Assembly (NCBI RefSeq): GCF_030811115.1
Contig: NZ_JAUSQK010000001.1
Span: 2,418,001-2,482,000 of the forward strand
Length of the DNA stretch: 64,000 bases
Source: Olsenella profusa DSM 13989
GTDB lineage: Bacteria; Actinomycetota; Coriobacteriia; Coriobacteriales; Atopobiaceae
Direction of reading: 5' to 3'
Shown: positions 3,572 to 52,620 of the stretch, in pieces
Layout: every line of letters begins with the position of its first letter
How positions within the stretch are numbered: the stretch's first letter is position 1
Notes under the pieces: generated by a model
What the model was told of the DNA's origin: nothing
The model's input: the letters and a program-made list of their open reading frames with translations, nothing else
Database searches by the model: none
Position numbers and translations under genes: made by a program

Positions 3572-3961
3572 CTACAGCTGCTTGTCCAACCCTCTGAGCT
3601 CGGGGGGGACACTGTGCTCCTCGAGCCCGAACGACCCGTAGACAGCCTGGGCCTGGGCATGGCGCACCTCCGCCAGCTCACCCCTTCCCGCGGTGGCGTA
3701 GGCATCGCCCACCTTGTCGAGCGCATACCCCACATATTCCGCAACCGAGTCGCCCACACCGGAGAGCACCATCATGGTGACGAGCGAGTCGGGCGAGAGC
3801 TGCAAGGCGATCACGGGGTCGATGTCCAGCAGGCCGGCGATGGCCTCCTCGACCTCACCGGCCGCCGAGAGATCCCCCGAACCGAGCGCACGTCTGAGCG
3901 CAGAGCTGACCACCTCCACAAACTGGGCGATGAGCTCGAGCAGATAGTCGTGCTGCAACAT
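3572..3961 (-). CDS. Helical protein of unknown function (possibly DUF6483-like)
   Basis: A 129-aa soluble, acidic, probably all-helical protein beginning MLQHDYLLELIAQFVEVV. The opening (DY, then LI and a hydrophobic helix) recalls proteins labelled DUF6483 in Firmicutes and Coriobacteria, but that is from memory. No catalytic motif, signal peptide or membrane segment is visible. It lies 40 bases after ruvB on the same strand and may be the last gene of the ruvCAB run; a role in DNA repair cannot be claimed from position alone. Confidence 0.6.
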   Translation of the reverse strand: MLQHDYLLELIAQFVEVVSSALRRALGSGDLSAAGEVEEAIAGLLDIDPVIALQLSPDSLVTMMVLSGVGDSVAEYVGYALDKVGDAYATAGRGELAEVRHAQAQAVYGSFGLEEHSVPPELRGLDKQL

Positions 3962-4001
3962 GTGGTCTCCCTTTGATGGTCATGACGCTGCCCTGGGGCA
4001 C

Positions 4002-5072
4002 TCAGGCCCCGCCGCCTTCCGCGGGCGGCACGATGCCGAGATGCTCGTAAGCGAGGGCCGTGGCCTGCCTGCCCTGCGGCGTGCGGACGATGAGGCCACG
4101 CTGGATTAGGTAGGGCTCATAGACGTCCTCGAGCGTGGAGGAGTCCTCCCCCACCGCCGAGGCGATGGTGGCGAGCCCCACGGGTCGGCCACGGAACGTG
4201 CGCGTGAGCGCATCGAGGATCCTGGCATCCATCCAGTCGAGTCCCATCTCGTCTATCTCGAAGAACGAGAGGGCCTCCGCCGCGACCTCCCACGTGACGC
4301 TGCCGTCGGCGCGCACCTGGGCATAGTCACGCACGCGCTTGAGCAGGCGGTTGGCCAGGCGCGGCGTGCCGCGCGCGCGGCTGGCGATCTCCTGGGCACC
4401 TTGGTGGTCCACCTCGACGCCAAGGATGGAGGCAGAGCGCTCCACGATGCGGGCGAGCTCGTCCGTGCCGTAGTAGTCGAGCCGATACGAGATGCCAAAG
4501 CGGTCCCGCAGGGGGCCCGTGAGGAGGCCCGTGCGCGTGGTGGCCCCCACAAGGGTGAAGCATGGGATGTCCAGCCTGATGGAGCGGGCAGCCGGGCCCT
4601 TGCCGATGACGATGTCGAGGGCGAAGTCCTCCATCGCCGGATAGAGGACCTCCTCGACCTGATGGTTGAGACGGTGGATCTCGTCCACGAAGAGGACGTC
4701 CCCCTCTTCGAGATTGGTGAGGATGGCCGCGAGGTCCCCCGTGCGCGCGATGGCTGGGCCCGAGGTGGTCTTGAGGCGCGCGCCCATCTCGGTGGCGACG
4801 ACGCCGGCGAGCGTGGTCTTGCCCAGGCCCGGAGGACCCGAGAAGAGCACGTGATCCAACGTCTCATTGCGCTCCCTGGCGGCAGCGATGAGCACGCGCA
4901 GGTTGGATCGGACGCGCTCCTGGCCGATGTAGCCATCGAGCGTGGTGGGCCTCAGGCTGTGCTCGACGTCGATGTCGTCCGCCGTGAGCTCGCCGGTGAC
5001 CATGCGCTCGCGCTCGTGGGACGGGGTCCCCACGGCATCCGCAAAGAGGTCGTCATCGGGGGCCTCCCACAT
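4002..5072 (-). CDS. ruvB: Holliday junction branch-migration motor RuvB
   Basis: A 356-aa AAA+ ATPase of normal length. Walker A is GPPGLGKTT (about 79-87), Walker B is VDEIH (about 129-133), sensor 1 is GATTR (about 177-181), and RDRFG provides the arginine-finger region. The C-terminal winged helix ends [12 protein letters not shown]. Two RuvB hexamers, loaded by RuvA, pump DNA through Holliday junctions. The N-terminal 30 residues are acidic and variable. The start ATG shares one base with the ruvA stop (TGATG), so translation is coupled. Confidence 0.97.
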
Positions 5073-28745: not shown

Positions 28746-29417
28746 TCAGTCGACAACGAAGCCAACTACTTTCCGTATGGGTGCTTTTGTAACAATAAAC
28801 TCATAGCTCCCCGCATCGAGTTCCGGTATGTACGTATCATCGATGGAGGATGGGAAGGGAGCATTCGTTCTGCCCGCGGCAAAGGGCACGTGCAGAAGGT
28901 AAGTCGTCTGTGGTTTGATGGATAGTCTGAATTCACCCTGAATCTGTGGAACAGAGCACTGGAGGAGGCCGTTCTCAACGCGAATCCATTGTTCGGGATG
29001 ACGGGCACTCGCGATGGACCACCCCAGAGAGTCCAGATATCCCCTCTCGTCATCCTGGGACTTGTTGTTGATGATTTCAACGTCAAGCACCAGCAACGTC
29101 TTGGCCTGGGAATCAGTCACATCATTGGGAATGGCATACGATGCCTCTTCTGTTGGGGAACTCACGGCGTAAGTGTCGAGGTACTCTTGGATCGACATGC
29201 GATGGGCAGCGTTGATGCGCAGGCTATATCCATCCGTGTTCTCCGTCTTGTACTCCGAGAAGGCCCCATCAAGAGAGACAGTCTCCCCCATACTGTACGC
29301 TTCCTTGGGAATCGTGATTGCCGTCGCATTGACGACCCATATACGCGCCACCAGGGCGATGACACATACAGACACTACAATGAGAATGGCAGCTATGCGC
29401 CTAGTGTTCCGCGCCAT
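28746..29417 (-). CDS. Membrane-anchored extracytoplasmic protein of the ABC island, copy 1
   Basis: A 223-aa protein with an Arg-rich start and one membrane segment (about 8-30), then an extracytoplasmic beta-rich domain. It shares YSMGET just after the anchor (41-46) and general layout with the 226-aa protein at the other end of the ABC genes, so the two are probably paralogues. It may belong to the small DUF5027/DUF5028-type families seen beside ABC transporters, but I cannot confirm this. It overlaps the ATPase gene by 17 bases and is the last gene of the island operon. Base composition is more AT-rich than in core genes. Confidence 0.65.
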   Translation of the reverse strand: MARNTRRIAAILIVVSVCVIALVARIWVVNATAITIPKEAYSMGETVSLDGAFSEYKTENTDGYSLRINAAHRMSIQEYLDTYAVSSPTEEASYAIPNDVTDSQAKTLLVLDVEIINNKSQDDERGYLDSLGWSIASARHPEQWIRVENGLLQCSVPQIQGEFRLSIKPQTTYLLHVPFAAGRTNAPFPSSIDDTYIPELDAGSYEFIVTKAPIRKVVGFVVD

Positions 29418-30129
29418 CGTGCTCCTCCCCTCTCACAAAGCTCTCGTGACCGTCCACGTGTCCCTCGGCCATAGCGTAGATTTCATCGGAAAGCTCATGC
29501 AGAATGGCAGAGGCGTGGCAGGCGAGCAGGATGGTCGCGCCACGCCCCTGTTCGCGTCGCACCAGCCGTGTCACCATCTCCACGCCAGATGCATCCAGCG
29601 CGTTCGTGGGCTCGTCGAGAATGATGAGGCTGGGTCGCTCCAAGAGTGCACCTGCGATGCCCAGACGCTGCTTCATCCCCAACGAGTACTTCCTGAAGGG
29701 ACGCCTGTCTCTGGGGTCAAGACCAACGTCACGCAACACGGCAAGGCAATCCTCCTCAGTCGCAACATCGCGCACCGAGGCAAGCAGTCGAAGGTTCTCA
29801 AGTCCGCTCCGCGATGCAAGGAAAGCTGGCCCTTCCAGAAGCACGCCAACACTTGGCGGAAAGGAGATGTCTTTCCCCACAACCTTTCCGTCCACGCGCA
29901 CCTCGCCGGAGTTTGGGCGGATGAGACCAAGCACCGCGCGCATGAGCATGGTCTTTCCCGAACCATTGGCACCGGAGAGGCCAACGGTGGAGCCCGGCGG
30001 CACCTCAAGGGAGATGTCCGAGAGCACCTCGACTCCACGGATACGCTTTGTGAGATGGGATACCACAACATGGACACCCCGGCCCGTACCCTCATGGGTA
30101 CCTGCAGTGGAGAAATGTGTGCCACTCAT
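29401..30129 (-). CDS. ABC transporter ATPase of the peptide-associated island
   Basis: A 242-aa single ABC domain. Walker A is GANGSGKT, the Q-loop region reads GVLLEGPAF, the signature is SLGMKQRLGIA, Walker B is LIILDEPTNALD, and the H-loop is LACHAS. The signature SLGMKQR is typical of the ABC-2/bacitracin-resistance and bacteriocin-immunity type of ATPases. It pairs with two ABC-2 permeases encoded immediately upstream. The start ATG overlaps the second permease stop as ATGA. Its N-terminal 20 residues are an extra polar stretch. Confidence 0.88.
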   Translation of the reverse strand: MSGTHFSTAGTHEGTGRGVHVVVSHLTKRIRGVEVLSDISLEVPPGSTVGLSGANGSGKTMLMRAVLGLIRPNSGEVRVDGKVVGKDISFPPSVGVLLEGPAFLASRSGLENLRLLASVRDVATEEDCLAVLRDVGLDPRDRRPFRKYSLGMKQRLGIAGALLERPSLIILDEPTNALDASGVEMVTRLVRREQGRGATILLACHASAILHELSDEIYAMAEGHVDGHESFVRGEEHDGAEH

Positions 30130-30962
30130 ATCGCATACTCCTTGTTGATGCAGTCCATACGAGAGAAGTACATGCCCCCTACCACGATGCTGATGAGGGC
30201 AATGCACGCGGCAAGGGCCATGCCACAAAACGGGCTCATTCCCTCCAAGACAGTCCCGTGCGTCCGGGCAGCCATGAGATAGTTGCCAGGAAGCAGAGGG
30301 TTGAACGCGTAGGCAGATGCCAGAAGAAGTGCCATGGTCGCGCCAAAGCTCAGTACGGGGCCAATCATGAGGGCAAGCGCCATCTGCATGAGGGAGAGCG
30401 CCACCAGCAGACAAGGCACAGACAGCACGAAACCCACGATGCCTACGGGTGGGTCAGCATCCATGGGCACGAGCAGCAGGTGCTCGAAGACGTCTTGATC
30501 GATGCCAAGAGAGAGTCTGCCCCGCAGAACAAGTGCGGAGAGCAGACAGACGATGCCCACGAGCAAGAAGCAGACAAGGGTAGAGACAGCTGTCCAGATG
30601 CACTTGGAGACCCACCACGTGCGTCGACCCCCGGACGCGATGAGCACACCTCTCCCAAAGCCCATGAGGTCACGATAGGGATATGAGAACGTCACGTAGA
30701 GTATCGAGCCGAGCATGAACAGCCAGGTGGTGGGAAATGGAAGGAAACGGTCGCGCGCCGGATCGAACACCCTGATGCCACCGAAGCATGCCACCAGTCC
30801 GTCTCCCCATGAGAGCGCTGGGATATCCAGCCCGAAGGACGCGATCCGCACGATCGAGACAACGATGATGCATAGGGCAACGAGCATGACAAGGATCATC
30901 CGCTTGTACGATTCGCGGAACCCCTCACTCAAATCCATGCGCATGCATGCGAGCAGCCTCAT
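30126..30962 (-). CDS. ABC-2 type permease, second of the pair
   Basis: A 278-aa polytopic membrane protein with about six hydrophobic segments (for example RMILVMLVALCIIVVSIV, WLFMLGSILYVTFSY and TLVCFLLVGIVCLLSALVL). The first residues (MRLLACMRMDLSEGFRESYK) form the amphipathic cytoplasmic start of ABC-2 permeases. It overlaps the first permease stop by four bases and the ATPase start by four. Direction of transport cannot be read, but ABC-2 pairs like this export peptides or lipids or give self-protection. Confidence 0.78.
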   Translation of the reverse strand: MRLLACMRMDLSEGFRESYKRMILVMLVALCIIVVSIVRIASFGLDIPALSWGDGLVACFGGIRVFDPARDRFLPFPTTWLFMLGSILYVTFSYPYRDLMGFGRGVLIASGGRRTWWVSKCIWTAVSTLVCFLLVGIVCLLSALVLRGRLSLGIDQDVFEHLLLVPMDADPPVGIVGFVLSVPCLLVALSLMQMALALMIGPVLSFGATMALLLASAYAFNPLLPGNYLMAARTHGTVLEGMSPFCGMALAACIALISIVVGGMYFSRMDCINKEYAI

Positions 30963-31807
30963 AGGACATCACTGTCCCTCTGGGCGCGAAGGATAGCTAC
31001 AGCTGTGGCAAGAAGGAACACAAGCACTATGCAAACCACAACCATACTTTTGGTGTATGTCAGGGACCAACTGCGCAGCATGTCAATGAGGTTGAAGCGG
31101 AACCCATTGATCCCCAACGCTCCGAACACATTTTCGTTAGCGTACTTGATCATCAACAGTGAGAGATAGGCACCAACCAACAGGAGCGCGCGATTGTCCA
31201 CCAGGCATGAGACGCCCAGCACAAACACGGCCCACAAGCCACAGAGGCAGCCGTCTATGAGGGTGTTCACGAGCACATAGGCCCATGGGGCCCCAAAGAA
31301 CAGAGAGACAAGCGCCTCACCCTCCGAGAGCCCAAAGTAGAGGTCGTCAATCACTTCAGGCGTATAGCCAGGCAGGGCACACGCCAAAACAACCAGATTC
31401 AACATGAGGGGCACAGCCGCAACGAGAAACCCTGCTACAAAGGCAGCGAGGCACTTGGCACAGAGATAGCGCCCCCGACTGCTCCGAACGTACATCTGAT
31501 TGAGCACCCCATCAATCGTCTCCGTGCGCAACGACATGGCATAGGGGACGAGAGCGAGCAGCGGCAGCACCTGAAAGAATATCTCACAGGACATGTTCGC
31601 GGACACAAAGACCCATTGCCCATACGCACCCATGGCAGACAGGCCATTCCACTCCCTGCTCAGGGGGTTGAGCGAGCTGCTGACCATAACCGTACTGATC
31701 GCCTCTATGGCAGAGGCGACGGCAAGGAGCGAGGCAACGACTAAGGCAATGACAAACCACCTGTTGCTGAGAGCCTTGCCCAGCTCAAGTCGAACGAGCC
31801 TAATCAT
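30959..31807 (-). CDS. ABC-2 type permease, first of the pair
   Basis: A 282-aa membrane protein beginning MIRLVRLELGKALSNRWF, the usual ABC-2 opening, with about six membrane segments ending in SMVVVCIVLVFLLATAVAIL. The ATG at 31807 overlaps the stop of the 226-aa anchored protein as ATGA and has AGGAGGG upstream. With the adjacent permease and ATPase it would form a heterodimeric exporter. Sequence similarity between the two permeases is low, so this is not a recent duplication. Confidence 0.78.
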   Translation of the reverse strand: MIRLVRLELGKALSNRWFVIALVVASLLAVASAIEAISTVMVSSSLNPLSREWNGLSAMGAYGQWVFVSANMSCEIFFQVLPLLALVPYAMSLRTETIDGVLNQMYVRSSRGRYLCAKCLAAFVAGFLVAAVPLMLNLVVLACALPGYTPEVIDDLYFGLSEGEALVSLFFGAPWAYVLVNTLIDGCLCGLWAVFVLGVSCLVDNRALLLVGAYLSLLMIKYANENVFGALGINGFRFNLIDMLRSWSLTYTKSMVVVCIVLVFLLATAVAILRAQRDSDVL

Positions 31808-32484
31808 GCTGCACCCTCCTGACGCTTGTCCGTGAACGTGCAGTTGACGCGGTATCCCCATCCCTCACCGTTTGAGAACGTGAATGAGTCCGCATCTGGC
31901 TGTACGACCACCCCAACCACAAATTCCCGCTCCTCTCCAGCGTCAAGGGAAAAGTAGCCGCTCTCGTCCCCATCCCTGTCGGGATCAAGGTAGACAATCT
32001 CGTTACTCGGACTGAGGTGCACGATTGAATCAAGAAAGAAAAGAACCTGGCCCGTTTCCGTAGAACTGAGGGGTCTGGCATCGATGTTCTTGATGGTGAC
32101 TCGAAAGACCAGTAGATTCGAGCTGTCACCTGATTCCGCATCGTCGGCAAAAAAGCTTGTCTCCCGATATGAGCTGTCCTTCCACCATGTGCCATCGCCC
32201 GCCGCCTGGGCTGGCCCCTGATAGAGCACGGCGTCAGTGATGCAGAGCTGAAGGCTGCCCTCAAAGGAACTCGAGCCCTCCCCGCCCTCATCAGAGGCCT
32301 CCGCATACGTAAACGTCTCGCCCATGCTATAGACGGGGGCCTCATCTCTCCGCTGTTCCATTTCCTGCTCATAGCTCATGGCCTGATATCGCTGAAAGCC
32401 CCAATAGCCCAGCCCACCGACAATGCACGCCACCGCCAGAATGAGAATGGCCACGACCTCTTTCCTTCTCACGAATCCCCCCAT
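31804..32484 (-). CDS. Membrane-anchored extracytoplasmic protein of the ABC island, copy 2
   Basis: A 226-aa protein: basic start, one membrane segment (about 11-30), a charged linker, then a domain beginning VYSMGET (51-57), shared with the 223-aa protein of the same island. The outer domain is acidic and rich in Asp and Ser (SFFADDAESGDSS, LDPDRDGDESGYF), possibly calcium-binding, though no strict motif is met. The start is uncertain: ATG at 32484 has no ribosome site because a hairpin occupies it, whereas GTG at 32472 (VRRKEVV) has GGGGGGA five bases upstream. Confidence 0.65.
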   Translation of the reverse strand: MGGFVRRKEVVAILILAVACIVGGLGYWGFQRYQAMSYEQEMEQRRDEAPVYSMGETFTYAEASDEGGEGSSSFEGSLQLCITDAVLYQGPAQAAGDGTWWKDSSYRETSFFADDAESGDSSNLLVFRVTIKNIDARPLSSTETGQVLFFLDSIVHLSPSNEIVYLDPDRDGDESGYFSLDAGEEREFVVGVVVQPDADSFTFSNGEGWGYRVNCTFTDKRQEGAA

Positions 32485-32489
32485 CAGAA

Positions 32490-32518
32490 GGGCTGAATGG
32501 CATGCTGCCATTCAGCCC
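32490..32518 (-). terminator. 13-bp stem hairpin between the secreted protein gene and the ABC genes
   Basis: GGGCTGAATGGCA-TGC-TGCCATTCAGCCC is a perfect 13-bp stem with a 3-base loop, 15 bases past the stop codon of the secreted protein gene and 6 bases before the next ATG. Only TTCT follows on the minus strand. It probably stops part of transcription or protects the upstream mRNA, giving more secreted protein than transporter. Confidence 0.75.
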
Positions 32519-32532
32519 GCGCTCGTTGGTGG

Positions 32533-32988
32533 CTAGTTCAAGTCAGCATAGTTTCCGGCACAGTCAGGACTCCAGGCTCCCGAAATGGAACCCCATCCGC
32601 TGTCTGCCCAGCCCGTCAGGCGTGCAAAGCGATACCCGCTCTCGCGTACGCTATTGTGAATCTCGTACTTACCAAGACCGGGGACCCGCACATAGCCGCC
32701 ATTCGTGCAGTTGTGCTCACCGTACCCCGAGCTGTAGCTTGACCCATCCACATACATGCGCGGAGCATTGCCCCTCATGTAAGTGACATTGATGTACGTA
32801 GAGCTGTAGGTATCTTTGCTTCGCCAATTAGTGCCTTGGGTGGTACCAGCTCCACTAAAATAGAAGGAGAAAACAGAGTCCTGCGTAGTCTCTACTTTTG
32901 CCTGTGCGGGCGTCGCAGGTTGTGCCAGGAGTGCCACAGCAAAGGCCACTGCCATGACAAGCACACCGAACCTTTTCCTGCCATACAT
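32533..32988 (-). CDS. Secreted protein of the ABC island (DUF2712-like)
   Basis: A 151-aa precursor. The signal peptide is clear: MYGRKRF, a hydrophobic core VLVMAVAFAVALLA, and a cleavage site AQA before Lys31. The mature 121 residues are Ser, Gly and Tyr-rich, with two Cys (HNCTNGGY and SPDCAGNY) that could form one disulfide, and no lipobox. The pattern (SFYFSG..., RSKDTYSSTYI, late SGAWSPDC) recalls proteins labelled DUF2712, many of which lie beside ABC transporters; this is from memory. I chose the internal ATG with GGAGGA five bases upstream. It is the first gene of the operon behind the regulator. Confidence 0.7.
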   Translation of the reverse strand: MYGRKRFGVLVMAVAFAVALLAQPATPAQAKVETTQDSVFSFYFSGAGTTQGTNWRSKDTYSSTYINVTYMRGNAPRMYVDGSSYSSGYGEHNCTNGGYVRVPGLGKYEIHNSVRESGYRFARLTGWADSGWGSISGAWSPDCAGNYADLN

Positions 32989-33101
32989 CTTGTCCTCCAT
33001 CTCTCTAACCATCGAAATGATTGGGCGCCCATGCCTCACAGTGACGGCCTATGGGCATCCCGTCTGTAGTCACGCGATATGAGAATGGGAAATGGGCCTG
33101 T

Positions 33102-35417
33102 TTACAAGCCGCTCAACTGGTGCAACGTGGCAATCAACTCGGAGCGGCTATGGACGTCAAGCCTCTTGTAGGCGGCAGCCCGTGCCGTGTTTATCGCCCC
33201 ACGCGAATAGTGGAGAGCCAACCCAATCTGAGCAGATGTCTGCCCACGGAGGATGCCGAGCACCACATCCTCTTGGATATGGGTGAGGCCTCGACCACGG
33301 AGCGTATAGCGGAGTCTTTCCTCGGAGGATGGCTGCTCGCCTAACAGCTCTAGCACCTGAGCATTGCGCTGGGTGCGCAGGCAGGCAGCGATACAGAGCA
33401 GGCCATACAGGCTCGAAAGCACATAACCAAGACTGGAGACGATGGCCCCAAAGGCAGCCCTCCCGCCGAAGGGGGCAGTAAGGACGTCATTTCCTACCAG
33501 ATAGAAGCCCAGGAGGTCCACCAGGAAGTCCCCACCAAGAATCCCCAGGGCACCGAAGGCAATGACGGCAGTCACGATCCTCGTGTCAAGGACACGGGCA
33601 CGAAGCCCTTCGCACAGCAGCCATATCAGCGCACAGAGGGCCCCAACAAAGAGCGCGACCCGTAGGTGAGCCGCCAGCACCAGAAGAATCATGATAGCCA
33701 GCAGGATAGCATGACAGCGATGCCGGCTAGACACCATGAGAATCAGGCCACCGACACAAAGGAGCTCAAACACCACAAGCTCGGTGGCAATCGAATACCA
33801 GGCGGTGCCGCGCCACAGCTCTTCCCACGAAAGCCCCACGACAAGGGAGAGCAATGGCAGCATGGTGCACAGTGGCACATCGATGTAACGAGAACGCACC
33901 CTATCGACCCGTGGCAGTATGTCCACAAGATATGGGACGCCTACAAGCAGGGTACCAACAAAGGCCAGCATCAGAACAACTGGCCCGTTCATGAGCCCAG
34001 CCCTCACGCCAGGCCAGGCAGCAAGAAAAAGGGTTATGAACCCCAATCCAAGACACACGCAACGGACAGCATCAAGCGTATCCCTCTCCTGTTGGCATCG
34101 TCCTCGAAACCACATCGGCAGGGGTGCCAGCAGGAAGAGCGCAAGGGCACAACCATACACGAATGGGCGCCAGGAGCCCCAGGGCAACCGGGAAACCTCG
34201 ACTGGCAAAAGCAGTATGGAGCCGCACAGCGCGGCAAGCATCAGCAATAGGCCGCTCCAGAGGCTACCATGCGCGAACCGGTCATTCTCATGCCCTCCTC
34301 CCAAATCATCCCTCCCATGTATAGTCGAGGCAGCACATTGGGGGACAGTTGGCCTGACCAGCTGCCGGAGTGCGGCAAGATTGGCCACGTGGGCCTTTCG
34401 GTACACACGCCGCATGGTAGCGCGTACCGTGGAAGGCCGTATGCCAAGACGCCGTGCCACATCCGATGAGGACAGATCCGCCAGGGAAAGGGAGGCGACC
34501 TCAAGTTCGCGCGGTGCCAGCCCATAGACGGATAGTATATCCCCTACCGACTGTCTCGCGTTTGGAGTGTGCGCAGAGCATGTTGGGTCACTCTCGCTCG
34601 ACCTAACCAGGAAAGGCCATCCGATAGCAACATGCGCACGGATAAGGCGTACGAGCGTCCAACATGCCGCTACGATCGCACAGGTCACGTAGAGCCACGA
34701 GTGCAGATTGCCCAGGGGAACGACACGAAGGAGAGCGGCCCATATCACAAGGCCAAGCGAAAGCCCCCACAAGGATGGAGTAACGGCAGCGTCCTGCACG
34801 ACGATGGCATCCCCTGCGTCTCCAGCGAGGGGAGCGTTCCATGCGAGGAGGCATACAAGCAGGGGCAAAGCCTCTGCCCCCAACAAGAGACGGACGTCAT
34901 ATGGCTGCTGCGAGACAATGGCAAAGAGGACGTAAGACACGAAGTTGACGAGATATCCCGTTGCTACGCCATCCAAAAATCGCAGCAATGAAGCTGACGG
35001 GATGGGTGATAAAACACTCTCGTTACCATCATCACCTTGGATGCCCCTGCGCATCGTAAGCGCGCAACAAGCCGATGCAACAAGCATCAACAGGGGTTGT
35101 ACATAAATCCCAACATTACGGAAGACATAATACCATTCCAAAGCAAAGATGCCCTGCGAGCGCTCCCCTATCACATCGCAAGGCACAAGCAGCCACTCTG
35201 GAAGGGCCCCGAGGACGAGAGACGCTACGCATGCCAGACCTACGGCTCTCCTCCCGAGGCTACTGTTCCTTCTCAGGGGAATGAGGCAACCAATCGCTAG
35301 GCCCATGGCAAGAAACGGCCTCACGCCTGCCAAGGCAGGATTTCTGCCCGAAACCAGACAGAACGGGGTAGACACCAACAAGCAAGGGAGCCCCTGGCAG
35401 AGCAGGGCTCTCCCCAT
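33102..35417 (-). CDS. Membrane protein with two LuxR-type HTH domains (tandem regulator)
   Basis: A 771-aa protein built as two similar halves. Half one has about eight membrane segments (20-275) and a LuxR helix-turn-helix at 298-353 (YGLAPRELEVASLSLADLSS...). Half two has about ten segments (385-690) and a second LuxR domain at 709-771 (GLTHIQEDVVLGILRGQTSA...). Coriobacteria are rich in single-unit proteins of this kind, about 450-500 aa; two fused in one chain is unusual. It likely senses a membrane or exported signal and controls the island genes just downstream. ATG at 35417 was chosen for the AGAGGGA site; TTG at 35462 is possible. Confidence 0.75.
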   Translation of the reverse strand: MGRALLCQGLPCLLVSTPFCLVSGRNPALAGVRPFLAMGLAIGCLIPLRRNSSLGRRAVGLACVASLVLGALPEWLLVPCDVIGERSQGIFALEWYYVFRNVGIYVQPLLMLVASACCALTMRRGIQGDDGNESVLSPIPSASLLRFLDGVATGYLVNFVSYVLFAIVSQQPYDVRLLLGAEALPLLVCLLAWNAPLAGDAGDAIVVQDAAVTPSLWGLSLGLVIWAALLRVVPLGNLHSWLYVTCAIVAACWTLVRLIRAHVAIGWPFLVRSSESDPTCSAHTPNARQSVGDILSVYGLAPRELEVASLSLADLSSSDVARRLGIRPSTVRATMRRVYRKAHVANLAALRQLVRPTVPQCAASTIHGRDDLGGGHENDRFAHGSLWSGLLLMLAALCGSILLLPVEVSRLPWGSWRPFVYGCALALFLLAPLPMWFRGRCQQERDTLDAVRCVCLGLGFITLFLAAWPGVRAGLMNGPVVLMLAFVGTLLVGVPYLVDILPRVDRVRSRYIDVPLCTMLPLLSLVVGLSWEELWRGTAWYSIATELVVFELLCVGGLILMVSSRHRCHAILLAIMILLVLAAHLRVALFVGALCALIWLLCEGLRARVLDTRIVTAVIAFGALGILGGDFLVDLLGFYLVGNDVLTAPFGGRAAFGAIVSSLGYVLSSLYGLLCIAACLRTQRNAQVLELLGEQPSSEERLRYTLRGRGLTHIQEDVVLGILRGQTSAQIGLALHYSRGAINTARAAAYKRLDVHSRSELIATLHQLSGL

Positions 35418-35521
35418 CCCACATGTCCCTCTAGCACGATGTGTCACGGATATTCGTCCCAACCACAGATCCCCATCAGGAGGCTCACGAGCATCCTACT
35501 CCATATGAAGAAAAGGATGGG

Positions 35522-49213: not shown

Positions 49214-49873
49214 CTATGCGAGCGTCCCTCCCGACATGCGCAGGATGCGGGCGCACTTCGCCGCCATGCCCATGTCATGGGTCACCACCACGAGCGTCTT
49301 GCCCGTGTCGCGGGTGGCCGAGACGAGCGCCTCCATGACGGTGGTTGCCATCCGCGCGTCCAGGGAGCCCGTCGGCTCGTCGGCCAGGATGAGGCCTCCC
49401 GGCTTCAGCATGGCCCGGGCGATCGCCACACGCTGCTTCTCCCCGCCAGAGAGCTCGCTCACCATGGAGTCCAGCTTGTCGCCGACGGAGAACCTCTCCA
49501 ACATCTGCTGGATGAGGGACAGCTTCCTGCCCTTGTCCAGCTTGGTGTAGTACAGGGAGAGCATGAGGTTGTCGCGCACCGCCCTCGAGTCGATGAGCGC
49601 GAAGGACTGAAAGAGGTAGTTGATCTCGTTGCGACGCAGGAGCATCGCCTGCCTGGTGTTGATTCCAGGATACCTCGTGCCCGCGAGGCGGATCTCGCCC
49701 GAGTCGGGGGTGTCGAGCAGCCCCAGCATGTTGAGCAGGGTGGTCTTGCCGCAGCCCGAGGGCCCGGTGATGGCGACCGTGTCCCCCTTTTGTACGGCCA
49801 GGTCGAGGCCCGAGAGGATCCTGTGCTGGCCGAAGGACTTGGAGAGGGACTCTACCTGGATGTACGGATGCAT
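49214..49873 (-). CDS. ABC transporter ATPase of the lactococcin 972-type module
   Basis: A 219-aa ATPase of the MacB/LolD type. Walker A GPSGCGKTT, Q-loop YLFQSFALI, signature LSGGEKQRVAIA, Walker B LILADEPTGSLD and H-loop VTHDM are all intact. Its permease is the FtsX-like protein encoded just upstream: its ATG shares one base with the permease stop (TGATG). In lactococcin 972 systems this pair accompanies the bacteriocin and is thought to give immunity. Confidence 0.88.
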   Translation of the reverse strand: MHPYIQVESLSKSFGQHRILSGLDLAVQKGDTVAITGPSGCGKTTLLNMLGLLDTPDSGEIRLAGTRYPGINTRQAMLLRRNEINYLFQSFALIDSRAVRDNLMLSLYYTKLDKGRKLSLIQQMLERFSVGDKLDSMVSELSGGEKQRVAIARAMLKPGGLILADEPTGSLDARMATTVMEALVSATRDTGKTLVVVTHDMGMAAKCARILRMSGGTLA

Positions 49874-52044
49874 CACTGCTCCTTTGAGACGGTTTCCAGC
49901 ACGACGGCCGTGGTCCTCTGGCGTGACGTGAGGACGATGACGAGGTTCGAGACGAGCAGCAGGGCGCCACCCACGAGCAGGCCTGCCTTGCACCGGAGTA
50001 GCGCGCAGATGGTAACACCCACCATAGTCGATATGGTCACGAACAGGATCTCCCGGCGGTACAGCTCCCAGGTGCCAAACCCCAGGACGTACTTCACGGA
50101 GATCTCCCGGGCGCTCACCCGGTTGACGACGTCGATGATGCACGCGACCATGACGGCGACGGTGGCAACCAGAAGGACAAGGACGATGGAGAAGAGGGCG
50201 AAGAGGTCCCTGAGGCTCTTCTGTATGCCGTCGATGTAGTTCTCCACGGTGACAAAGCGGGCGTTGAGGGACCCTTCGAGGGACGCCTCGCCGTCATCGC
50301 CAAGCAGCGTGGATGCAGCCTGCTCGTCCAGCTTCACGTACCCGTTCTCCAGGCCCGAGGCAACGAGGCTCTCCGACTCGAAGGGCACCATGTTCTCCGC
50401 CGTCACGACCGCTATGACAAAGTTTCCTGCCGTGACCGGCCGTCCCGAGTCCGTGCTCCACGTGAAGAGCTCCTTGCTTCCGTCATAGGGGACAAACTCG
50501 TACGTGGGGCTCTTCATGAAGGTCGTGACGATGTTGGAGTCGACCGACCCTCTGGAGGCAACGAGGAGCCTCTGCATTGCCTCGGCCTCGGAGGCGTCCA
50601 GGGACTCTGGCAGAAGGTAGACGCGCACGCCCTGCTCGGCCCTCTCGATGACGTCGCCCGGGAGGCCTATGCCGACCTTCCTCAGGTAGGAGGGGGATGC
50701 CGCAAGGTACCAGAACGGCTCTGGCTTGGAGTCGGAGCTCCCCTCCGTGTATGCGTCGATGGTCGCCTCCTCATAGCGGCTGACGTTCGCCAGATAGACG
50801 CCCTCGTCATGCTCGTGCTTGGCGTACCATGCATACAGGTCCTCGGAGTAGTCCATCGGGTTGCCCGTTAAGGGGGACCCGTTCAGCTCGAAGTCCCTCA
50901 CCACGTACCAGTCCTCGTATTCGCTCCATGTGGTGCGCGTGCGCGCCAGGTTGGCGTACATGGCGAGGGGCTGGTCGATGTACAGGCAACCCCCAAAGAT
51001 CGCGACCATGCACAGAAGGTAGACCGCCATGGCCAGCGCGTAGAACCCACGGCGCGAGTAGCGACCGCAGATGGCCTCGACCGGACGTGCGGTAAAGAGG
51101 GGGACGATGGAGATGACGGCGGCGACAAGCACCGCGACCACCGCCGGCAGCACGGATGCGAGGGCAAACCCCACAACGGCGGGGCGCAGGGCAAAGCCCT
51201 CGAGGATGGCGAGCGTCCCCAGCGCCCCTATGGGTAAGACGACGGGGAGCTGCCGTGCCTGGGCACCGAGCAGCTCACAGGCGAAGTCCCCCCTGCTCCA
51301 GCCCAGCATGAGGTGTACCCCCAGCGTCTTGAGCTCCAGCAGCGAGTGGGTCACCATGAGCAGGCAGAGCACGATGGCAAGCAGGATGAAGGCCCCAGCG
51401 CAGAACCAGTAGAGGAGTCCTAGCTCCGTGGTCGAACCCGACATCCTCGTGGTGAGGGTCTCCGCACTCACCCCTATGGTCGACGACAGGTCGTCAACCA
51501 ACGTCTGGGACTCGCTGTCGCTCAGGCCGACAAACGTGCAGGTGCTCCCGAGGTTTGCCCCCGAGTCCAGCCTGTCTATGCGAAAGTACAGCCCGGATCT
51601 GATGCTGGGAAGGCTCGCCACCCGCGAGAGGGCATCGTTCCCATAGCCCGCATAGCCATCAGGCCCTGCGTCGATCACGGCTCTCAACAGGGAATCGTCT
51701 ATCACCGTGGTGTCGAGGAGGGTCAGGGGGTCGAGGGAGGCGTTGCCTGTGCCCGGCGTGGCCAGCACGCTGAAGGTGTAGAGGGTGGCACCCGATTGCA
51801 GGGACTCCTTGTCCCGGCTCACTGCGATGAAGCCCCTCTCGCCGGAGAGCTCTTGGAGCGTTGAGACGAGCGCATCCTTCTGGTCGTCGGTCAGCTGTGT
51901 AGTGTATATGCTTGGTTGGTCTGACAGCCACGACTCGGCCGATCGTGCGGCCAAACCCTCCAGGATGCCCTTTGCGCAGATGAGGGATGTGATGCCAAGG
52001 AAGGCTATGACGACGAGGCTGATCGCAGAACGGATCTTCTTCAT
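49873..52044 (-). CDS. Bacteriocin-associated FtsX-like permease (putative immunity)
   Basis: A 723-aa protein with one N-terminal membrane segment (about 5-28), a large extracytoplasmic domain, three segments near the middle (about 205-330), another outer domain, and about three at the C-terminus (LFALFSIVLVLLVATVAVMV...). This layout and length match the bacteriocin-associated integral membrane proteins (TIGR01654/DUF1430) found beside lactococcin 972. The ATG at 52044 starts MKKIRSAISLVVIAFL; the ribosome site is weak (GGCGGTG). It lies 68 bases after the bacteriocin gene. Confidence 0.78.
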   Translation of the reverse strand: MKKIRSAISLVVIAFLGITSLICAKGILEGLAARSAESWLSDQPSIYTTQLTDDQKDALVSTLQELSGERGFIAVSRDKESLQSGATLYTFSVLATPGTGNASLDPLTLLDTTVIDDSLLRAVIDAGPDGYAGYGNDALSRVASLPSIRSGLYFRIDRLDSGANLGSTCTFVGLSDSESQTLVDDLSSTIGVSAETLTTRMSGSTTELGLLYWFCAGAFILLAIVLCLLMVTHSLLELKTLGVHLMLGWSRGDFACELLGAQARQLPVVLPIGALGTLAILEGFALRPAVVGFALASVLPAVVAVLVAAVISIVPLFTARPVEAICGRYSRRGFYALAMAVYLLCMVAIFGGCLYIDQPLAMYANLARTRTTWSEYEDWYVVRDFELNGSPLTGNPMDYSEDLYAWYAKHEHDEGVYLANVSRYEEATIDAYTEGSSDSKPEPFWYLAASPSYLRKVGIGLPGDVIERAEQGVRVYLLPESLDASEAEAMQRLLVASRGSVDSNIVTTFMKSPTYEFVPYDGSKELFTWSTDSGRPVTAGNFVIAVVTAENMVPFESESLVASGLENGYVKLDEQAASTLLGDDGEASLEGSLNARFVTVENYIDGIQKSLRDLFALFSIVLVLLVATVAVMVACIIDVVNRVSAREISVKYVLGFGTWELYRREILFVTISTMVGVTICALLRCKAGLLVGGALLLVSNLVIVLTSRQRTTAVVLETVSKEQ

Positions 52045-52112
52045 GGGGCACCGCCATTGAGAAGTTGCCTTACGTGACATGAGGGAGTGTTGCCTGGTAC
52101 TTCGCGAGGTTC

Positions 52113-52403
52113 CTATCCCCTGCAGTCCCAGTATGGTTGGAGGGTACTCGCACCTATAAAGCCCCACGCCTGCGACAGGACTCCCGGGTCCTTCCAACCG
52201 GACACATGCCCGTTGCAGGAGGAGCAGTGCTCGTAGGTCTGGGAGTTGCAGTCAGAGAATCCATACACTCCCGCGTTGCGCCCATAGTTCCAAAACACTG
52301 CACTACCCTTGTAGTACACGGTCCTCGCTAGGGCAGCGGTCGGTCCGCCGAAACACAGGGCGCAGCAGAGCAGAGCTCATATGACAGACTTCTTGCCTTT
52401 CAT
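52113..52403 (-). pseudogene. Lactococcin 972-like bacteriocin precursor with an in-frame TGA
   Basis: Read as one frame, 96 codons give MKGKKSVI, TGA, ALLCCALCFGGPTAALA, then RTVYYKGSAVFWNYG... The first 26 positions form a signal peptide (AALA before Arg27) broken at codon 9 by TGA (52377-52379). The mature part has the family pattern: W-x-YG near the start, then Tyr/His and SSCNGHVSGW, ending with PYWDCRG. Four extra Cys are unusual. GGAGA lies six bases before the ATG. Without readthrough, translation would have to restart at GTG 52319, inside the mature part, with no signal. The neighbouring permease and ATPase are intact. Confidence 0.75.
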
Positions 52404-52484
52404 GGCTGTCTCCGTTCTCGAGCAATGGCGGTGCCTGGGAAAAAGGTATGCATTTGAGAAGGCCAGCAGAGACCTTATCAGAGG

Positions 52485-52537
52485 ATAGTAGATAAATGGA
52501 ACTTAATTATCCGTAAGCGGTACCTTATCTGTAAGCG
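52485..52537 (-). promoter_or_regulatory. Promoter with paired direct repeats in front of the bacteriocin gene
   Basis: On the plus strand TTATCCGTAAGCG (52507-52519) and TTATCTGTAAGCG (52525-52537) match at 12 of 13 positions, 18 bases apart. A TACTAT -10 match (52485-52490) lies downstream in the bacteriocin direction; the near repeat takes the place of a -35. This arrangement suggests an activator binding two sites. The region 52440-52600 is clearly AT-rich, unlike its surroundings. Confidence 0.55.
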
Positions 52538-52620
52538 ATAGAACATATAAATAACCATAATGAAAAGTAATAACTGAACATCCCCCAGTCAGTTGCCAGG
52601 TAGCACCCACAGCATCACAG

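Follow-up and report, generated by a model that had tools for sequence, protein, structure and literature searches.

Genes and features of the locus

Olsenella profusa is a bacterium of the mouth. In a 64,000-nucleotide stretch of DNA from O. profusa DSM 13989, referred to here as the window, we found a chromosomal operon in which an interrupted gene for a small secreted peptide is followed by genes for a large membrane protein and an ABC ATPase. The rho gene lies upstream of the peptide locus and runs in the same direction. The features are given from upstream to downstream.

52423..52435, minus strand: leader arm GGCACCGCCATTG of a 13-bp pairing, identified by covariation
52401..52413, minus strand: start ATG (52401-52403) and ribosome-binding site GGAGA (52409-52413)
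52113..52403, minus strand: lactococcin-972-like precursor gene, broken at codon 9 (pseudogene), from frame reading and an HMM of its relatives
52377..52379, minus strand: in-frame TGA (codon 9) in the hydrophobic part of the signal peptide, also found in a second O. profusa genome (G002)
52116..52325, minus strand: mature part, 70 codons with four Cys, from a gap-free alignment with relatives of other genera
52113-52115, minus strand: stop TAG of the peptide frame
52047..52059, minus strand: partner arm CAATGGCGGTGCC of the pairing, containing the permease ribosome-binding site, identified by covariation
49873..52044, minus strand: intact permease of 723 aa with a weak match to TIGR01654 (bacteriocin-associated membrane protein)
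49214..49873, minus strand: intact ABC ATPase of 219 aa, top NCBIfam model TIGR03608 (L_ocin_972_ABC)

The peptide frame comprises 96 codons from the ATG at 52403 to the TAG at 52113, with GGAGA five bases 5' of the ATG and the TGA at codon 9 as its sole interruption. It translates as MKGKKSVI, the stop, ALLCCALCFGGPTAALA and then the mature part, RTVYYKG...YWDCRG. Since an HMM built from the relatives aligns to 96 of 96 peptide positions across the TGA (E=3e-56), the frame is not a chance reading, and both the coordinates and the continuity of one signal peptide and mature part across the stop, as proposed in a first-pass annotation, were borne out. The mature part of O. profusa is so far without any stop or frameshift, which speaks against loss of the gene. 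The same TGA, with no sense codon, is present in the independent assembly of O. profusa F0195 (G002; L004/L027; contig NZ_AWEZ01000045.1), which answers a proposed check on related strains. A sequencing or assembly error would have to change just one base triplet, and nothing further favors it; since both assemblies carry the identical TGA while differing at 23 other positions over 5169 bases, we consider this explanation excluded for practical purposes.

The two downstream genes are open throughout, as the annotation had stated, and the ATPase start overlaps the stop of the permease. The ATPase scores 234.9 bits against TIGR03608, below the 254.85-bit cut-off, and this is still the best match among all NCBIfam models. 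The permease matches positions 156-677 of 681 in TIGR01654 with 21.9 bits (E 5.1e-5), short of the cut-off of 189.35 bits. Separately, imperfect direct repeats, CGCTTACAGATAAGGTAC and CGCTTACGGATAATTAAG, lie 5' of the peptide gene (window 52503-52538) and overlap a weak sigma-70-like match; they are a possible regulator site.

Relation of the peptide to lactococcin 972

The annotation had ascribed the lactococcin 972 pattern to the mature part, and we compared it with the motifs W-x-[YH]-G and [FY]-S-[DN]...H-x-[SA]. The window peptide had no hit to Pfam or NCBIfam models. Among its relatives, PF09683 matches one of nine (best E 0.1) without reaching the curated cut-off, while TIGR01653 matches 7 of 11 (best E 5.9e-5), all under the cut-off, and is the leading sub-threshold family; the TIGR01653 bit scores shown for the peptide clade are 17.5-22.2 against a cut-off of 32.1 bits. 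Profile alignment (hhalign) of A6 with six lactococcin 972 sequences gave a probability of 63.8% (P 6.6e-5) with W/YG and FSD/H aligned, and the probability drops to 20.6% without bridging sequences. By inspection, the intact relatives have a K-rich n-region, a hydrophobic core, and ALA or AFA ahead of the mature part, that is, a Sec signal peptide ending in AxA, which in the window copy is interrupted. An AlphaFold model of the mature part had a mean pLDDT of 45.5, too low for a fold comparison with 2LGN, and a PDB sequence search using the peptide profile returned nothing relevant. Plasmid searches for lactococcin 972 gave no match with an actinobacterial member as query; when the lactococcin 972 core served as query, pBL1 and one Enterococcus plasmid were the only matches. 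Among papers that mention both O. profusa and bacteriocins, none deals with such a bacteriocin according to its title and abstract.

All four Cys annotated in the mature part are present; across the nine core alignment rows C52 and C94 never change, and C60 and C63 do. The annotation called these Cys unusual for the family, but other actinobacterial lactococcin 972-like peptides also contain Cys, which is thus nothing unusual among the actinobacterial relatives. We asked whether the peptide might be a different kind of secreted, Cys-containing peptide that shares only its transporter type with lactococcin 972. Scores under the Pfam and NCBIfam cut-offs and an hhalign probability no higher than 64% speak for this, but the lead of TIGR01653 among sub-threshold families, an operon order as in pBL1, and an ATPase of the L_ocin_972_ABC type speak against it, and we regard it as unlikely. 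Judged from sequence, the peptide is remotely related to lactococcin 972. The remote similarity and the operon type thus stand from the original claim; since neither the PF09683 nor the TIGR01653 cut-off is reached, we label the peptide lactococcin-972-like without assigning it to the family.

The closest model for comparison is lcn972-orf2-orf3 of Lactococcus lactis plasmid pBL1 (NC_004955, PDB 2LGN), which has the same order of peptide, large membrane protein and ABC ATPase, a Sec-type signal peptide, a small secreted peptide, and an ATPase that is 34% identical. In contrast to pBL1, the O. profusa locus is chromosomal, its peptide gene is stopped and scores below the family cut-offs, its mature part has four Cys where mature lactococcin 972 has none, the permeases barely align by BLASTP (E 0.029), and the leader pairing is missing from pBL1. 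A second operon of the same genome (L060) likewise encodes a PF09683 peptide, a permease and a TIGR03608-type ATPase, but its peptide frame is intact and of different sequence, a radical SAM/SPASM gene follows, and it has no leader/RBS pairing.

Several further peptide loci were observed. In L060 (3362-8355; G000:C1:2595000-2606000), the radical SAM/SPASM protein (436 aa) overlaps the ATPase stop and is followed by a 183-aa membrane protein, which suggests a modified bacteriocin; a related locus occurs in G051 (L057). G051 carries yet another lactococcin-972-like frame (L048), which differs in sequence and contains an in-frame TAG. The window itself has what looks like a further cluster for peptide export: a minus-strand stretch of lower GC (28746-35462) encoding a LuxR-type membrane regulator (33102-35462), a DUF2712-like secreted peptide (32533-33039), an ABC exporter, and two proteins that are secreted or membrane-bound.

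Related loci, selection and the leader pairing

Permease relatives were found in 19 of 140 genomes of the bacterial family. The peptide frame is open from its ATG in five relatives of other genera (L007, L009, L015, L017 and L018). At the position of the window TGA, relatives have Thr, Leu, Ala, Val or Ile and never Trp, Arg or Cys, so that an origin from TGG or CGA, as the annotation had suggested, is unsupported. In L011 and L013 the frame is open with ATA at the aligned start and a strong GGAGG before it. Elsewhere the gene is damaged: changes in A-run length near the peptide start throw the ATG out of frame in L008 and L010, only peptide remnants are left in L016 and L024, and no peptide was found upstream of the permease in L012 and L014. 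Permeases are mostly open among the relatives with peptide lesions, and the G077 permease is split. Taken as sequences, these relatives show stepwise decay in which the peptide is lost before the permease.

Individual relatives showed further features. The ATA start position (1130 in both L011 and L013) is common to two genera whose mature parts are under strong purifying selection (omega 0.04); either the rare ATA serves as the start, or an upstream in-frame ATG overlapping the pairing arm is used. The A-run differences in L008 (1138-1160) and in the L010 peptide (3742-4031, minus strand) are of a single base, both loci are close to the intact L009, and the differences could reflect phase variation or decay. 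Codon 445 of the L010 permease is an in-frame TGA at a site that encodes Trp in close relatives, and the peptide of that genome is frameshifted as well. More distant peptide relatives occur in another family of the order (L043 in G413 and L044 in G334), and in L044 an ABC ATPase sequence comes right after the peptide with no full permease between them.

Over the 5169 positions of the locus, the two O. profusa strains show 23 differences, and 10 of these fall within 243 bases that cover the mature part and the adjoining 3' spacer, a clustering that no shuffle of SNP positions matched. Eight changes lie in the peptide gene vs 10 in the seven-fold longer permease (Fisher P 5e-4). Those in the peptide gene, small counts from two strains, comprise six nonsynonymous and two synonymous nucleotide changes and result in five residue changes, one of them a G to R replacement in a column that shows no other variation. 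In other pairs, too, the synonymous rate is two to three times higher in the peptide than in the permease, so some of this excess is typical of the family and does not stem from the lesion. Omega is 0.03-0.19 for the mature part between genera, indicating purifying selection, and approximately 1 for the peptide between the two strains. The O. profusa branch since L007, which is longer than the strain split, is mostly synonymous in the peptide, so constraint was apparently lost late. These data fit a peptide gene that was constrained until late and then released. Permease omega is also raised (0.85 between the strains, 0.43 against L007), and therefore the whole locus may be relaxing. The loss had been described as recent; measured against the genus-level split this is correct, although the lesion is older than the split of the two known strains.

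We found that the leader arm GGCACCGCCATTG, which ends approximately 20 bases before the peptide ATG, is complementary to CAATGGCGGTGCC at the permease ribosome-binding site. By chance, the 12-base core of the pairing should turn up 0.04 times in the window; it is present there exactly two times, and these are the two arms. All thirteen pairs are retained in 10 of 11 loci, both sides are altered at five pairs by compensatory changes, and no shuffle scored as high. Furthermore, the minimum-free-energy fold of a 421-base stretch contains this helix (z -2.1). The leader element falls in different reading frames in the relatives and is thus conserved as nucleic acid. The pairing was not found in the three other lactococcin 972-type operons tested (pBL1, the Enterococcus locus and the second operon of the same genome), and Rfam gave no match at the peptide/permease locus. 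From its position, the pairing may couple permease translation to peptide initiation.

Readings of the interrupted gene

At the locus we directly observe initiation signals, a stop, open downstream genes and a conserved pairing. Our preferred reading, with a probability of about 0.78, is a chromosomal lactococcin-972-type operon whose peptide gene carries an inactivating nonsense codon within the signal peptide region and whose permease and ATPase remain as probable immunity genes. Ribosomes would still initiate at the intact peptide ATG and translation would end after eight residues, from which we infer that no bacteriocin is exported. The permease and ATPase would persist as immunity or export; by analogy of gene order and from work on lactococcin 972, in which orf2-orf3 are described as immunity genes (PMC4055356), they probably still protect against related bacteriocins and confer a non-producing, immune genotype. 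Pneumococcal streptococcin B offers a parallel, as a quarter of pneumococci retain scbBC without the peptide of scbABC (PMC11796350). Those strains have lost the functional peptide together with its competence regulatory region, whereas O. profusa has a single nonsense codon with the rest in place; furthermore, scbBC-only strains can still be inhibited, and the function of B and C is unverified (PMC11796350).

We considered three ways in which the frame could still yield a product. Low-level reading of UGA by a near-cognate tRNA would give little functional prepeptide and make the TGA a tolerated change or a regulatory throttle. The TGA is the sole lesion and is identical in both strains, and the remaining frame, ribosome-binding site and leader are all intact; however, the peptide looks unconstrained within the species (omega and the G to R change above), and the relatives have no stop at this position. 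Readthrough, which the annotation had allowed for, lacks positive support and is in our judgment unlikely. Internal restart would give a shortened product, and there are two starts to consider: a GTG at the mature start that begins a 68-codon frame, and an ATG overlapping the TGA. The GTG product would lack a signal peptide, and the closest SD-like AGG lies too near the GTG, while the ATG is in another frame that stops soon after in the window strain, which makes restart highly improbable. Decoding as selenocysteine is scarcely credible. The genome does encode tRNA-Sec (RF01852, 73.1 bits; ARAGORN anticodon tca) and SelB (TIGR00475, 367 bits), so UGA is decodable somewhere in the organism, but none of the relatives has Cys at this position, the residue would sit in a signal peptide that is cleaved off, and the RNA 3' of the TGA is no more stably folded than its shuffled versions (z=+0.78), with no SECIS-like fold.

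The best reading is thus that the nonsense lesion was fixed before the two O. profusa strains split and left an immunity/export-only locus; an immunity-only locus had been proposed at first and is supported by a TGA that cuts the precursor inside the signal peptide ahead of intact ABC genes. The TGA itself is an ordinary loss-of-function change. If the pairing acts as its position suggests, it would keep permease translation low until ribosomes load at the peptide start, where a ribosome would open the leader arm; since the stop at codon 9 leaves the start intact, permease expression could survive loss of the peptide. A further, rather doubtful extension is that the pairing is a switch tying immunity synthesis to bacteriocin initiation. 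Early lesions such as the TGA would then be favored as a route to an immune non-producer, because the toxin would be abolished while the initiating ribosome still opened the immunity genes.

A central expectation in bacteriocin ecology is that the toxin is lost while immunity is kept, and about a dozen loci in a single bacterial family display successive stages of this loss. Most worth pursuing are the conserved leader pairing and the unannotated peptide clade. The Cys-containing peptide clade of Atopobiaceae escapes present Pfam and NCBIfam cut-offs, and its intact members are therefore probably unannotated, while through the conserved pairing the translation of bacteriocin and of immunity may be linked in a specific way that can be tested.
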